A stretch of DNA of 64,000 bases, taken from positions 1 to 64,000 of the forward strand of contig NZ_MTAW01000238.1 in the NCBI RefSeq assembly GCF_002154725.1. The letters are read 5' to 3'. The first letter of the stretch is position 1. Each line of letters starts with the position of its first letter. The translations under genes and the position numbers were made by a program. Shown piece by piece: positions 43,808-63,693 of the stretch. Under the pieces are notes generated by a model. The model was not told the DNA's origin. It searched no databases and was given only the letters and a program-made list of their open reading frames with translations. Source of the DNA: Nostoc sp. 106C (GTDB lineage Bacteria > Cyanobacteriota > Cyanobacteriia > Cyanobacteriales > Nostocaceae).

Positions 43808-45064
43808 ATGGCGGCTCGAATTAAAATGACTTCATTACTTCCTCGAAATCTCAGCGTTGTTATCCGACCAGTCCAATACCGGGATCTGGACGGAATTGAA
43901 CGCCTAACTCAAGAGTCATTCGCAGCCCAAACCCCAAAAGGAGTTGGTTTTGCCACACGCCAGATGCAATGGCTGCGAAGCTGGTATGGCTTTTTGAAAT
44001 TTTTGAGTTGGTTTCCTAACCCGTTACAGTACCTCTTCTGTTCCTATGTAGCAGAGCAGGGGCGGATGCTTCTAGGAATGATTCAAGTGTCTCCGTTCAA
44101 CCGCACGCGCAGTACTTGGCGAGTTGATCGGGTTATGCTAGACCGTGCTACCGATAAGCAAGTAACTGGTTCTCAACTTTTACGCCATTGCTTTGAGTCG
44201 GTAGTAGAAGCGCGTACTTGGATACTGGAAGTAAATGTCAACGATTTAGAGGCCCTAGCACTATATCGGCAAAATGGATTCCAACGTTTGGCTGAGATGA
44301 CCTACTGGGAAATCGAACCCGAATTGTTGACTGAGTTGGCACAAGCAGAGCCAGACTTGCCTAACCTTTTGCCTATAAGTAATGCTGATGCCCAATTGTT
44401 ATATCAATTAGATACGGCATCAATGCCGCCTTTGGTGCGTCAGGTCTTCGATCGCAACACCCGTGACTTCAAAACTAGTTTATTTGGGGCCTTAAGCGAT
44501 GCTGTCAAACAATGGGTCACTAAAACAGAAGTAGTGAGTGGCTACGTGTTTGAACCCCAACGCAAAGCAGCCATTGGACATTTTCAGGTACAACTAGATC
44601 GCAAGGGTATGACCCCTCACGTAGCAACGCTGACAGTTCACCCCGCCTATACTTGGCTTTATCCAGAGTTGCTGTCCCAACTAGCTCGCATTGTCCAAGA
44701 TTTTCCCCAGCAAGGGTTGCGACTAGCTTCCTCAGATTATCAGCCAGAGCGAGAAGAGTATTTAGAAAGAATTGGAGCCAAACGGACAGAACATACCCTG
44801 ATTATGTCTCGCTCAGTTTGGCATAAGTTACGGGAGTCTAAATTTGTCTCTTTAGAAGGAATTCAGTGGCCTGAAGTTTTACAAGGGCTGCAACCTGCTC
44901 GTAAACCAATACCAGGGGGTATGTCATGGACCCAACAAGTTCAAAAGCGATCGCAAGATAGATCGATACCCACGAAATCAGAACCTGCGGCTTTCGGCAG
45001 TAAACCCTCTAGTTTAGATGTATCTTGCCAGTCTGAGTCAGCAGATGCACAGCCAGAGAAGTAG
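43808..45064 (+). CDS. GNAT-family N-acetyltransferase with C-terminal extension
   Basis: A 418-residue protein. The N-terminal GNAT domain (about 15-165) has VVIRPVQYRDLDGIERL, and a late region ILEVNVNDLEALALYRQNGF typical of the acetyl-CoA fold. A second GNAT-like part (about 185-350) ends in a region with YLERIGAKRTEHTLIMSRSVW. The last 60 residues are polar and probably disordered. The substrate is unknown. ruvX starts 28 bp after the stop, so the two are likely in one operon. Confidence 0.85.
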   Translation: MAARIKMTSLLPRNLSVVIRPVQYRDLDGIERLTQESFAAQTPKGVGFATRQMQWLRSWYGFLKFLSWFPNPLQYLFCSYVAEQGRMLLGMIQVSPFNRTRSTWRVDRVMLDRATDKQVTGSQLLRHCFESVVEARTWILEVNVNDLEALALYRQNGFQRLAEMTYWEIEPELLTELAQAEPDLPNLLPISNADAQLLYQLDTASMPPLVRQVFDRNTRDFKTSLFGALSDAVKQWVTKTEVVSGYVFEPQRKAAIGHFQVQLDRKGMTPHVATLTVHPAYTWLYPELLSQLARIVQDFPQQGLRLASSDYQPEREEYLERIGAKRTEHTLIMSRSVWHKLRESKFVSLEGIQWPEVLQGLQPARKPIPGGMSWTQQVQKRSQDRSIPTKSEPAAFGSKPSSLDVSCQSESADAQPEK

Positions 45065-59830: not shown

Positions 59831-61072
59831 TTAAGTTGTATATTCGGCGTTAATCTTTACATAGTCATAACTTAAGTCACAACCCCAAGCTTTACCTGTA
59901 CCATGACCATTACCAACGCTAACAGAAATTAATACTGTATCTTCTTTAAGATACGCACCTTTAGATGCTCCTTTCAAATAAGCACTCGCTGCTGCACGGT
60001 CAAATGCTAGAGGTTGTCCATTTTCTAGTAGTAAAAAATTTCCTAGCTTGATTTGCAGATTTTCTTGCTCAAATGGTATACCTGCACGTCCGGCGGCAGC
60101 GGCAATGCGCCCCCAATTAGGATCGCGACCAAAAATTGCAGATTTCACTAGAGATGAACCTGCAATAGTTTTAGCTATTTGACGTGCTGATAGTTCATCA
60201 TGGGTGCCGGTAACTTGCACTTCAATCAAGCAAGTTGCACCTTCACCATCGCGAGCGATCGCTTTTGCTAAATGTTGACACACTGCTGTTAACATCGCCT
60301 CTAATTTTTCGGCTTCTGGCCCCATTTCTACAATTGCTGGGGTGCGGGATTGGCCATTTGCTAAGGCGATTAAGCTGTCATTGGTACTGGTATCACCATC
60401 CACAGTAATTGAGTTGAAACTTCTGTCAGCGGCGCGACTCAACATTTGTTGCCAAAGTCCTGGTGACACAGCAGCATCACAGGTAACAAATGCCAGCATA
60501 GTTGCCATGTTGGGATGTATCATCCCAGAACCTTTGGCAATACCACCAATGCGCACGGGGCGATCGCCTATAGTTGTCTCTAGCGCAATCGATTTAGTCA
60601 CTAAGTCTGTAGTAATAATTGCTCTTGCTGCTGCATCTGAGCCTGTGTCTGAGAGTGCTGCTACTAGTTGGGGAATTTCTGCTTTCAGTTTATCGATTCG
60701 GATTCGCTGCCCAATTACCCCAGTCGAAGCCAATAACACAGAGTCACTGGAGATATTCAGAGCTTGGGCTACTGCCATAGCTGATTCTAGGGCATCGAAC
60801 CAGCCTTGACTACCTGTGGCAGCATTTGCTTGCCCAGCATTGCAAAGAATGGCCCGAGTATTATGCTTGGCTTGTAAGCGTTGACGACAATAATCTACGC
60901 AGGCGGCTTTAACTTGACTAGTGGTGAATACACCCGCTGCGATCGCTTCTACATCTGACAATATCAAAGCTAAATCGGGCAATCCTGAAGGTTTTAAACC
61001 TGCGGTAATTCCTGCGGCCCGATATCCTCTTGGTGCTGTGATCCCACCTGTAATTTCCTGCCAATCCGCCAT
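59831..61072 (-). CDS. argJ: Glutamate N-acetyltransferase/amino-acid acetyltransferase
   Basis: A 413-residue arginine-pathway enzyme moving acetyl from acetylornithine to glutamate, which recycles the acetyl group. It has GFRAAGI-like GYRAAGITAGLK at the start, CNAGQANAATG, and the self-cleavage site in GMIHPNMATMLAF, where cleavage before Thr makes alpha and beta chains. VDGDTSTNDS and GRDPNWGRI are further family motifs. Complete at both ends. The small-RNA array lies upstream, with its last terminator 204 bp before the ATG. Confidence 0.96.
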   Translation of the reverse strand: MADWQEITGGITAPRGYRAAGITAGLKPSGLPDLALILSDVEAIAAGVFTTSQVKAACVDYCRQRLQAKHNTRAILCNAGQANAATGSQGWFDALESAMAVAQALNISSDSVLLASTGVIGQRIRIDKLKAEIPQLVAALSDTGSDAAARAIITTDLVTKSIALETTIGDRPVRIGGIAKGSGMIHPNMATMLAFVTCDAAVSPGLWQQMLSRAADRSFNSITVDGDTSTNDSLIALANGQSRTPAIVEMGPEAEKLEAMLTAVCQHLAKAIARDGEGATCLIEVQVTGTHDELSARQIAKTIAGSSLVKSAIFGRDPNWGRIAAAAGRAGIPFEQENLQIKLGNFLLLENGQPLAFDRAAASAYLKGASKGAYLKEDTVLISVSVGNGHGTGKAWGCDLSYDYVKINAEYTT

Positions 61073-61275: not shown

Positions 61276-61326
61276 AAAAAGGAGAGCCACTTGGGCAGCT
61301 CTCCAGATCATCAGGGTGCATCTATA
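61276..61326 (-). ncRNA. Tandem small RNA, copy 1
   Basis: Minus-strand promoter: -35 TTGCCC (61355-61360), 16-nt spacer, -10 TATAAT (61333-61338). The RNA begins near 61326, contains ATGCACCCTGATGATCTGG, and ends with GGAGAGC/GCTCTCC (61298-61304 and 61281-61287) followed by five T. It is the copy closest to argJ and has the best -10. End positions are estimates. Confidence 0.75.
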
Positions 61327-61420
61327 TAGCATATTATAGCATCTCTTATGTGAGGGGCAATACCCCTTAGTTATAAATTTATAAAAAAATGATTAAGTTG
61401 GTTTTTAAGTTTAAACGAAA

Positions 61421-61473
61421 ATAAAATAGAGAGCCACTTAGGAAACTCTCCAGATCATCAGTGTGCATCTATC
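61421..61473 (-). ncRNA. Tandem small RNA, copy 2
   Basis: -35 TTGAGC (61502-61507), 16-nt spacer, -10 TAATAT (61480-61485). Conserved core ATGCACACTGATGATCTGG. The terminator stem CTCTC/GAGAG (61446-61450 and 61429-61433) is followed by a T-rich tail. Its hairpin is 147 bp from that of copy 1. Confidence 0.72.
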
Positions 61474-61561
61474 TAGCAGATATTAACATTTTCTGCATGA
61501 GGCTCAATACCCATTATTAAACTTTCTTTTTGCAAAGTTATGATGAAGACTTATCGAAGTA

Positions 61562-61733
61562 AGTAGGTCGGCTTGAATATTTATCGTTGGAATGAGGCAG
61601 AAGGCAAAAGGTGAGCCAGCGCGGTCTTGGGGGTTTCCCCCATGAGCGACTGGCGAACCCGAAGGGCAGAAGGGAAGAGGGTTTAAGCCTATTTTGTTTT
61701 TCTTAACATAGTTTTTTTCCACACCATTCTACT
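61562..61733. mobile_element. 172-bp MITE (copy B) inside the small-RNA array
   Basis: The sequence is nearly identical to the element at 1181-1355, with ends AGTAGGTCGGC (61562) and CACCATTCTACT (61733) and TA on both sides (61560-61561, 61734-61735). The 57-bp core lies at 61611-61667. It sits in the spacer between small-RNA copies 2 and 3. Removing it with one TA (174 bp) restores the 147-bp period of the array. Confidence 0.88.
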
Positions 61734-61740
61734 TATCACA

Positions 61741-61795
61741 AAAAAAAGAGAGAGCTACTTGGGCAGCTCTCCAGGTCATCAGGGTGCATCTATAT
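61741..61795 (-). ncRNA. Tandem small RNA, copy 3
   Basis: -35 TTGACC (61824-61829), 16-nt spacer, -10 TATAGT (61802-61807). The core ATGCACCCTGATGACCTGG is followed by a GAGAGC/GCTCTC stem (61766-61771, 61750-61755) and a long T-run. This has the best -35 of the four. Confidence 0.74.
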
Positions 61796-61891
61796 AACAT
61801 AACTATAACACTTTTGCCATGATGGTCAATACCCCCTAATGGATTTTTTTAGGTAAATTTTTCACAAATTTTTCATCTTGATTTGGCAAAG

Positions 61892-61942
61892 AAAAAGAAG
61901 AGGCTCTTAGAGCGCTCTCCAGAGCATTATGGTGCATCTAAA
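61892..61942 (-). ncRNA. Tandem small RNA, copy 4 (diverged)
   Basis: The -10 GATACT (61949-61954) is weak, and the -35 position reads ATACCC rather than TTGNCC. The core is ATGCACCATAATGCTCTGG. The terminator stem around AGAG/CTCT with a GC inner part is imperfect, followed by five T. It is the promoter-distal, oldest-looking copy, at 148 bp from copy 3, and may be inactive. Confidence 0.6.
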
Positions 61943-62082
61943 TAGCAGAGTATCGCATTTTTGGATTGAGGGGTATAACCCATCTTCACAATTTCTTTTT
62001 GTAACAATTTTGTGAAGCAGCTGCCAGAAATATATTGGTGGTTTTTCAATCAACAAAAGACGCAGGGATACAGAAACGCAAA

Positions 62083-62217: not shown

Positions 62218-63693
62218 TTAAGAATTCAGTTTCTTCTCCACCAATTCATTAGTCAGCTTAGGATCGGCACGTTTTTCAGTCTTTTTCAAAACCTGCCCAA
62301 CAAAGAAGCCTTTAAGATTAGTGTTACCATTACGATACTTTTCTAGTTCTTTGGGATTGGCGGCGATCACTTCATCTACGATTGGTTCTAACACCGCAGG
62401 ATCGCTAATGAGTTCTTGTCCTGCAAAAGCTTTCTCAGGAGACACACCTGCAAGCAAGTCTGGTAACTTTTGCTTGGCTTGGGCGTTGCTGATTTTGCCT
62501 TGTTCAATCCGAACGATCACATCGGCTAAATTTTTGGGAGTCAAACCGATTTCGCTAATGCTGAGTTTTTGCTTATTGAGATAAGCTGCAATATCTTGAG
62601 TAATCCAGTTAGCGGCTGCTTTAGGATTTGCACCCGCCGCGATCGCATTTTCAAAATAGTCAGCAGATGGCCGATCTTCTGTTAAAACTCGCGTATCGTA
62701 AGCAGAAAGCCCCAATTCAGTTTCGTAACGATGGCGTTTTTGCGCGGGTAATTCTGGAAGTTCGCTGCGCCAAGCCTCTAATTGTTCTCTTGAAACTTCA
62801 ATTGGTGCTAAATCTGGTTCGGGGAAATAGCGGTAATCGCTAGAACCTTCTTTTGTCCGCATACTAATTGTACGTTGCGAACCTTCTTCCCACAGGCGAG
62901 TTTCTTGAATAATGCGATCGCCTGCAACTGTTGCTGCAATTTGCCGTTCAATCTCGTATTCAATCGCCCGTTGGATGGCGTTGAATGAGTTCATATTTTT
63001 AATTTCTACTTTCGTGCCAAACTCTTTTTGTCCCACTGGACGAATCGAGATGTTGACATCGCAACGTAAAGATCCCTCTTGCATGTTGCCGTCGCTGACG
63101 CCAAGATACCGTAAAATTCGGCGTAGTTCTTGAGCGTATTCAGCAGCTTCTTGTCCAGAACGCAGATCTGGTTCCGAAACAATTTCTACTAATGGCACAC
63201 CTGCGCGATTGTAATCTACCAGAGAATAGGTAGAACCGGAAAGACGCTCGCTACCCGCGTGTACTAATTTGCCTGCATCTTCTTCCATGTGCAAACGGGT
63301 GATCCCAATGCGTTTGCGAATCGGATTACCGTCAGCATCTACTAACTCAATTTCTAACCAACCATGTTCCGCTATTGGCAGGTCATATTGCGAAATTTGG
63401 TAATTTTTCGGTAAATCGGGATAGAAATACTGTTTACGGTCAAATTTGCTGTATTTAGCGATTTGACAATTTAGTGCTAAACCAGCTTTGACAGCATATT
63501 CTAGTACTTTTTGGTTGAGAACTGGTAAGACTCCAGGTAAACCCATACAAACTGGGTCGATGTTAGTATTGGGGTCTCCACCAAATGCCGTCGAGCTGGT
63601 AGAAAAAATCTTGGTATTAGTACTCAGCTGACAATGGGTTTCTAGACCAATAATCGCTTCGTACTCAGTTTTTACGGTTGTAGCAGAAGTCAT
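62218..63693 (-). CDS. gatB: Aspartyl/glutamyl-tRNA amidotransferase subunit B
   Basis: A 491-residue subunit of GatCAB, which turns Glu-tRNA(Gln) (and Asp-tRNA(Asn)) into the amidated form. Kinase-like N-terminal part with YEAIIGLETHCQLST, FDRKQYFYPDLPKNYQISQYD, LHMEEDAGKLVH and SLVDYNRAGVPLVEIVSEPD. The helical and YqeY-like tail runs from about 300 to the end (GNTNLKGFFVGQVLKKTEKRADPKL). It is complete, with a normal ATG. It is read toward the small-RNA array, but the two are 240 bp apart. Confidence 0.97.
   Translation of the reverse strand: MTSATTVKTEYEAIIGLETHCQLSTNTKIFSTSSTAFGGDPNTNIDPVCMGLPGVLPVLNQKVLEYAVKAGLALNCQIAKYSKFDRKQYFYPDLPKNYQISQYDLPIAEHGWLEIELVDADGNPIRKRIGITRLHMEEDAGKLVHAGSERLSGSTYSLVDYNRAGVPLVEIVSEPDLRSGQEAAEYAQELRRILRYLGVSDGNMQEGSLRCDVNISIRPVGQKEFGTKVEIKNMNSFNAIQRAIEYEIERQIAATVAGDRIIQETRLWEEGSQRTISMRTKEGSSDYRYFPEPDLAPIEVSREQLEAWRSELPELPAQKRHRYETELGLSAYDTRVLTEDRPSADYFENAIAAGANPKAAANWITQDIAAYLNKQKLSISEIGLTPKNLADVIVRIEQGKISNAQAKQKLPDLLAGVSPEKAFAGQELISDPAVLEPIVDEVIAANPKELEKYRNGNTNLKGFFVGQVLKKTEKRADPKLTNELVEKKLNS

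Follow-up and report, generated by a model that had tools for sequence, protein, structure and literature searches.

Heterocyst differentiation is governed by the master regulator HetR, which is also present in filamentous cyanobacteria that do not form heterocysts. The closest described relative of the genes analysed here, the small RNA NsiR1 (RF02399), is encoded upstream of hetF by tandem multi-copy genes with individual promoters and a 5' seed UAGAUGCACCCUGAU, and has been published as acting on hetF and alr3234 (PMC9045159). An NsiR1-like RNA, RNA162, is found in Limnospira indica PCC 8005, a non-heterocystous strain with hetR (PMC8400943); it is likened here by description only, as its sequence and promoter class are not in the text consulted. 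Multi-copy sRNAs of the NsiR1 kind are already known, as is the occurrence of such an RNA outside heterocyst formers (PMC8400943). Another sRNA of similar size, 4547237r of PCC 7120 (51 nt), was detected in 12 of 27 genomes, all of them heterocystous, in a study that required a distance of 200 nt or more between an sRNA start site and the gene downstream (PMC4734099). The HetR site is described as an inverted repeat, GAGGGGTCTAACCCCTC at hetP, with a minimal form GGGN5CCC and, in the ChIP consensus, a conserved A two bases before GGG (PMC4192349). Statements attributed to these papers refer to the portions of their text that were available.

The window, that is, the whole 64,000-nt stretch of contig NZ_MTAW01000238.1 of Nostoc sp. 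106C, carries four direct sRNA units of ~50 nt in the minus-strand intergenic space between gatB and argJ (Table 1). The first-pass annotation had described a four-copy minus-strand array of self-contained sRNA genes located between argJ and gatB, not at hetF, and both statements were confirmed: an 18-base core pattern matches four times at three or fewer mismatches, against a mean of 0.02 in shuffled sequences, and the neighbours read as argJ and gatB. Each unit comprises ~95 conserved bases in the order palindrome, -10-like box, 5' stretch, hairpin, and T-run. Common to all four are GGGT, TAGATGCAC, ATG, CTGGAGAG, and the final CTCT with the T-run, with variable spacers, and the identity to copy 1 is 100, 79, 67, and 72% for copies 1 to 4. 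Tandem Repeats Finder at its threshold reported no array, which is expected because the copies are only 67-79% alike.

Several details of the original description held for some of the copies. The unit length of ~147 bp fits the first and third spacings (147 and 148 bp), but the middle spacing is 321 bp, with a dispersed repeat of ~178 bp separating copy 2 from copy 3; the array of G006, a close relative, has no such gap (spacings 149, 144, and 147). A promoter of the TTGNCC-TATAAT type had been assigned to every unit, but the sigma-70 promoter scan is satisfied by copies 1 and 3 only (4 matches in total versus 3.7 in shuffles), and TTGNCC overlaps the right half of a GGGN5CCC palindrome. As to the terminator hairpins, the terminator scan gives a terminator-like match in copies 1, 2, and 3 and none in copy 4, whereas folding (z = -2.6, -0.4, -3.4, and -2.1 for copies 1-4) supports the hairpin in copies 1, 3, and 4; the hairpin of copy 2 is weak. 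Copy 4, reported as diverged, is so in the seed and the stem but keeps an exact GGGN5CCC. The gene layout (promoter, ~50-nt RNA, terminator) is complete in each unit, if weak in copy 2, and, judging from these sequence features, the array almost certainly consists of sRNA genes.

Table 1. Features of the gatB-argJ intergenic array and its surroundings (positions within the window)
Feature	Position	Strand	Basis or remark
Copy 1 repeat unit	61276-61369	(-)	
Copy 1 sRNA	61276..61325	(-)	approximate 5' end to T-run
Copy 1 seed UAGAUGCACCCUGAU	61310-61324	(-)	sequence
Copy 1 terminator hairpin	61281-61304	(-)	terminator scan and folding
Copy 1 -10 box TATAAT	61333-61338	(-)	sequence
Copy 1 palindrome AGGGGTATTGCCCCT	61353..61367	(-)	exact GGGN5CCC, HetR-site-like (definition in the available part of PMC4192349)
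Copy 2 repeat unit	61423-61516	(-)	
Copy 2 sRNA	61423..61472	(-)	one seed change: CACACTGAT
Copy 2 weak hairpin	61427-61452	(-)	folding
Copy 2 palindrome ATGGGTATTGAGCCT, degraded	61500..61514	(-)	two misses versus GGGN5CCC
Dispersed repeat, ~178 bp, between copies 2 and 3	61560..61738	.	outside sRNA unit
Copy 3 repeat unit	61744-61837	(-)	
Copy 3 sRNA	61742..61793	(-)	seed intact at 61778-61792
Copy 3 hairpin	61749-61772	(-)	terminator scan and folding
Copy 3 -10 box TATAGT	61802-61807	(-)	sequence
Copy 3 palindrome GGGGGTATTGACCAT	61822..61836	(-)	one miss versus GGGN5CCC
Copy 4 repeat unit	61892-61985	(-)	
Copy 4 sRNA	61892..61941	(-)	seed (CACCATAATGC) and stem diverged
Copy 4 hairpin	61897-61920	(-)	folding
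Copy 4 palindrome ATGGGTTATACCCCT	61969..61983	(-)	exact GGGN5CCC
argJ, downstream neighbour, synteny marker	59831..61072	(-)	name from reading of the sequence
gatB, upstream neighbour, synteny marker	62218..63693	(-)	name from reading of the sequence

The dispersed repeat recurs in the genome as four further copies of nearly full length (92-93% identical), one of which lies within the window at 1179-1357, and as shorter pieces on other contigs.

The core pattern was detected in 167 of the 217 genomes of the window's family (Nostocaceae), representing 44 of 56 genera, with no match for the reversed-pattern control. At least 115 stretches contain the core, including those from Fischerella, Scytonema, Calothrix, Nostoc, Anabaena, Nodularia, Richelia, and one Coleofasciculus. 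Among the 115 matches listed, both gatB and argJ were seen in 53, only argJ in 29, only gatB in 22, and neither in 11, on stretches many of which are cut at 8 kb. Among the same listed matches, the units invariably share the strand of their neighbour (argJ, 154 of 154 unit-gene pairs; gatB, 141 of 141), and the number of copies per stretch is 1 (57 stretches), 2 (38), 3 (16), 4 (3), or 6 (1). The range of 12 of 27 genomes given for 4547237r, an RNA of similar size compared by description only, is narrower than that of the array core (PMC4734099, in part). Under the 200-nt rule of that study, a unit close to argJ might have been scored as an argJ start. In genome G123, a unit near 1,709,213 on the minus strand precedes argJ by 137 nt.

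The location of the units upstream of argJ on the same strand wherever both are seen, with the nearest unit 124-505 nt before the argJ start (within 200 nt in 34 of the 82 such stretches among the matches listed), would be compatible with a cis effect of the array on argJ, for instance that of a leader containing a series of terminators. This is very unlikely given the 22 listed stretches with gatB but no argJ and the 11 with neither in 8 kb, the promoter-seed units that sit on many different contigs outside the family, and the pairing data. The argJ and gatB leaders had been put forward as the first target candidates, and this proposal found no support: seed pairing is not enriched in either argJ leaders (mean z +0.84, n=33) or gatB leaders (mean z -0.55, n=52; four at -15 kcal/mol or better), in a test from which leaders were dropped if their 180-base region contained a unit.

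The changed seeds of copies 2 and 4, together with a copy number that ranges from 1 to 6 per stretch among the matches listed, could be taken to indicate decaying tandem duplicates without a present role, which we regard as even less probable, as the core is kept across the family while the spacers vary. The 14 columns from AUG onward are each 94-100% identical in 219 units, an identity partly built in by the selection of these units for similarity to the core. The AUG at the 5' end of the core raises the further possibility that the product is a tiny leaderless ORF (AUG CAC CCU GAU ...); that is exceedingly improbable, considering that in the 219 units the third codon positions show roughly the same invariance as the first and second and that the downstream sequence differs between the classes described below.

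A resemblance to NsiR1 had been noted on the basis of layout. It extends to the sequence in that copies 1 and 3 match the RF02399 consensus at all of the first 15 nt, which are changed in copies 2 and 4. The Rfam comparison suggested for the core bore out the seed match but not membership of the family. At the gathering threshold, Rfam identified one tRNA only in the whole window, and in a permissive scan RF02399 matched copies 3, 2, and 1 with 22.2, 18.8, and 14.8 bits (E = 0.07, 0.45, and 4.4), against a cut-off of 39, with copy 4 unmatched. These E-values are weak, and the kinship with NsiR1 rests on the 15-nt identity. The array is also distinct from the NsiR1 arrays proper, true NsiR1 copies above the cut-off being located on contigs C19 and C162 of the same genome. 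Its place is between gatB and argJ instead of upstream of hetF, its promoter consists of a palindrome and a -10 box where NsiR1 has TCCGGA, and its terminator hairpin is different and shorter (GAGAGC...GCTCTC). We file the array apart from NsiR1 because three defining NsiR1 features, namely, a score above the RF02399 cut-off of 39 bits, a TCCGGA (DIF) motif near -35, and a position upstream of hetF, were tested and not found; very probably, it represents a sister class that shares the NsiR1 seed.

The window's genome contains the 14-base seed AGATGCACCCTGAT at 10 places, nine of which belong to the gatB-argJ array and the NsiR1 sets. The tenth, on contig C141 (L260, L261, and L262), occupies a conserved place in the genus, has neither promoter class upstream, and is probably not an sRNA gene.

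The two kinds of units differ consistently in their promoters. In the window-type units, GGGN5CCC is exact in 99 of 219 and has one miss in 97 more (196 of 219 altogether), in a fixed register centred ~37 bases upstream of AGATG, counted from its first A. Five alternative registers give the palindrome within one miss in 0-1 of the 219 units, and shuffles in a mean of 1.1 (maximum 5). None of 130 NsiR1-type units has it within one miss, and 125 of 129 carry TCCGGA within one mismatch. Among the 220 units initially assigned to the window's type, TCCGGA was found in L050 only, which is of the NsiR1 type and was reassigned. The palindrome of the units fits the published HetR site (PMC4192349, in part), including the A two bases before GGG in 162 of the 219 units: GGGN5CCC is common to the hetP site and the units (exact in copies 1 and 4), whereas the central bases differ and the palindrome of copy 2 is degraded. 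As a pattern, GGGN5CCC is only loosely specified. None of the 26 HetR ChIP regions of PCC 7120 in Table 1 of that paper is named for argJ or gatB, a comparison made by names, with locus tags unmapped.

Both classes extend well beyond the family. Among 388 genomes of the order to which the window's organism belongs, 194 carry the palindrome class (searched as GGGGN5CCC, then 18-40 bases, then GATGCACCCTG) and 229 carry the TCCGGA class, with no match for either reversed control. Palindrome units from the loci fetched outside the family have the same build, often GGGGTGACACCCCTCA...TATAnT...AGATGCACCCTGATGAT.GGGAGAGT...; one locus (L290, on contig C57 of G418) is an eight-copy tandem array, so palindrome-class arrays are not confined to the window's family. 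At the level of the wider class, the 15-base seed was found in 205 of 388 genomes, nearly all-or-none by family. Eleven units from four families of the class outside the order, taken from the top of the class-level list of seed matches, comprise four with the palindrome (no miss), six with TCCGGA, and one, L410, with TCCTGA; L407 has TCCGGA plus an overlapping one-miss palindrome-like site.

A second palindrome subclass, with the same seed, shorter promoter spacing, and a GCCC/GGGC terminator, was observed at L218, L275, L276, L280, and L282-L284. TCCGGA units of the NsiR1 class are also present outside the window's family in HetR-positive genomes (L036, L037, L041, L042, and L047), the hosts of which we take to be non-heterocystous from the layout of GTDB.

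HetR (PF03574) was identified in 236 of the 388 genomes of the order. A promoter-plus-seed combination of either class is present in 234 of the 236 HetR-positive genomes versus 7 of the 152 HetR-negative ones, in a 2x2 table compiled manually, with margins that agree with the tallies of 194, 229, and 236. Counted by family, the combination is present in 17 of 18 versus 1 of 15 (p = 2.6e-7); genomes, like the leaders analysed below, are related by descent, so that p-values are optimistic. The two HetR-positive genomes without the combination are G027, which still has an NsiR1 match of 53.6 bits, and G532, which is 55% complete. The seven HetR-negative genomes with it are G030, G247, G269, G353, G404, G454, and G527, three of them under 90% complete; G030, with five palindrome-plus-seed matches and no HetR match at 99% completeness, is a real exception. 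On contig C200 of G030 (L420), there are five seed units, four of which have TCCCGA or TCCTGA replacing TCCGGA.

Three HetR-negative genomes (G233, G307, and G323) have the bare seed in the class-level scan and keep the terminator type of the window's class. At the usual place of the palindrome, they show 3-4 misses of 6: G233 has nothing nearer to the palindrome than two misses, and in G307 and G323, two members of one genus, a one-miss GGGAGTAACCT is found displaced to -55. The loss of the palindrome alongside the absence of HetR in these genomes, representing two lineages, is suggestive. The HetR-negative G318, which lies inside a HetR-positive family, has neither promoter-seed combination. 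Taken with the fit to the HetR site, these patterns indicate that HetR probably controls the units of the array via the palindrome; our confidence is lowered because two of the three palindrome-loss genomes keep the shifted one-miss site.

Alternatively, the palindrome could be read by another regulator or be a general promoter feature, the link to HetR then reflecting only the common descent of the filamentous lineages. Co-inheritance of HetR and the seed would be possible, G030 combines palindrome-plus-seed matches with the lack of a HetR match, and the TCCGGA class persists in the HetR-negative G247 and G269. We consider this alternative unlikely, although by no means negligible, because the palindrome matches the HetR site down to the A before GGG, G233 keeps the RNA without the palindrome, G307 and G323 have only the shifted site, and G318 lacks both combinations within a HetR-positive family.

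The leader of hetR itself is, in our assessment, the likeliest candidate target of the seed, with a probability somewhat above even. A first set of hetR loci (60 fetched, 56 with starts found after L323, L336, L355, and L360 were dropped) yielded 42 non-redundant leaders. In the region -150..+30, the mean best duplex is -12.8 kcal/mol versus -9.6 for permuted seeds, none of 1000 of which is as good. Control seeds give -9.5 (reversed), -9.8 (complemented), and -11.8 (reverse complement); some of the signal may be compositional, as the last value is nearer to that of the real seed than are those of the permuted seeds. The hetR leaders differ from other-gene leaders (p = 4.6e-9; G+C 0.41 versus 0.37 in the background), the comparison being conservative because the background of 409 leaders includes loci chosen for the seed complement, which are omitted from the background of 307 used for motifs. 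Compared with dinucleotide shuffles, the leaders give a combined p of 6e-17; 14 of the 42 reach p<0.05 singly, and in many the site is weak or absent. The mean z is -1.43 in -330..-150 and -1.11 in -150..+30; the stretch -390..-210, which overlaps the former, gives -0.61, and values elsewhere in the leaders range from -0.4 to +0.5.

The sites in hetR leaders are often bipartite, consisting of AGGGTGC, a variable loop, and ATCTAC, which are complementary to the GUAGAU-GCACCCU halves; the element of Nostocaceae hetR leaders is GGGTGTATACTAC near -70. The strict bipartite motif, which was defined after inspection of the first set, is found in 10 of 42 leaders, from three families only (f1, f2, and f9), and is absent in the other 32, compared with 0.005 in shuffles, 0 of 307 other leaders, and no antisense match. 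In 17 of 42 leaders, the half motif AGGGTG[CT] is found (shuffles 1.3, antisense 6 of 42). Sites of the strict motif are located 40-245 nt upstream of the start codon, except for one near -313.

A second set (40 fetched, 39 starts found, 38 usable) added 20 leaders that a comparison of shared 8-mers showed to be new and non-redundant; 14 of these are from Nostocaceae. The strict motif is present in 7 of these 20 (15 of all 38 usable) and absent in 13, with none in shuffles or antisense; six of the seven are from Nostocaceae, where the conserved element recurs by descent. The mean energy is -14.0 versus -10.4 in shuffles, and 1 of 300 permuted seeds is as good. The half motif was not replicated in this set (3 of 20, antisense 3). 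The second set speaks for conservation of the element and for its match to the seed, but it is not an independent sample of lineages, and we have lowered our confidence in the target because its leaders are mostly relatives of those in the first set.

A substantial but lesser possibility is that the true targets lie elsewhere (hetF, hetP-like, or other mRNAs) and that the complementarity in hetR leaders is a DNA element or due to chance. The Nostocaceae hetR element contains TATACT, which could be a promoter box. Furthermore, in presumed hetF leaders, GATGCATCTAA is found near -245 in three of four genomes (z -2.0, -2.7, and -3.3), where hetF is presumed from a long ORF beside the NsiR1 array; this accords with the report that NsiR1 acts on hetF (PMC9045159, in part). 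Conversely, both seed-complement halves of the hetR site are kept in f1, f2, and f9 despite differing flanks, loops, and positions, and the bipartite motif is confined to the sense strand of hetR leaders in the comparison with antisense and the 307 other-gene leaders. The leaders of hetP-like genes are not enriched among the 11 scored of 13, except L213 (z -1.9), several of the starts being doubtful. On balance, we retain the hetR leader as the candidate.

The leaders of presumed hetF genes with the seed-complementary GATGCATCTAA are those of L248, L258, and L259; in L248, the site is apart from the nearest antisense NsiR1 copy. A search for the seed complement TCAGGGTGCATD in seven genomes gave 11 matches in five. 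At L196, L199, and L203, from three genomes of the genus, an exact 11-base seed complement lies ~58 nt before a predicted ORF, and this ORF, which encodes a putative helix-turn-helix protein, is a possible further target.

Combining these lines of evidence, we moderately favour an explanation in which the units are HetR-linked, trans-acting sister sRNAs of NsiR1 with feedback on the hetR leader. HetR would bind the palindrome and set the transcription of each copy, and the ~50-nt RNA would use its 5' seed to pair with the hetR mRNA leader, perhaps also with that of hetF. The predicted site is GGGUGUAU-A-CUAC ~70 nt before the start codon in Nostocaceae and AGGGUGY-N1-9-AUCUAC or variants in other families. 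The output of HetR would thereby feed back on hetR; the palindrome centre near -37 would suit activation or repression alike. Several copies could raise the dosage and permit drift, copies 1 and 3 keeping the seed and copies 2 and 4 having changed it. NsiR1 would use the same seed from TCCGGA promoters, so that one targeting sequence is served by two kinds of switch. More tentatively, and with a likelihood that we put somewhat below even, the loop may be ancient in filamentous cyanobacteria and predate heterocysts, the seed under both promoters targeting the hetR mRNA and HetR driving the palindrome copies.

If correct, this explanation implies a direct output of HetR and a candidate feedback circuit in heterocystous and non-heterocystous groups alike, and an ancient loop would give HetR a regulon in non-heterocystous lineages. 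NsiR1 would be recast as one promoter class within a larger sRNA family, and multi-copy sRNAs could put one targeting sequence under two types of control. The gatB-argJ class, its palindrome promoter, the co-occurrence with HetR, and the match in the hetR leader appear to be new: none of these, nor the gatB-argJ place, is described in the literature searched, the coverage of which includes some papers in part and does not extend to the main NsiR1 papers. A text search for the seed string retrieved no paper, and NsiR1 together with argJ gave only argJ2 in a table, in the available portion of the source.

Two minor observations concern related elements outside the array. An NsiR1-like gene with AGATGCACCCTGGTT is found away from the main arrays in several genera (L249, L250, L251, and L253), with TCCGGA in the promoter of the first three and TCCGGG in that of L253. 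Within the window, a further HetR-like palindrome, AAGGGTATGACCCCT, is located at 44603-44617.
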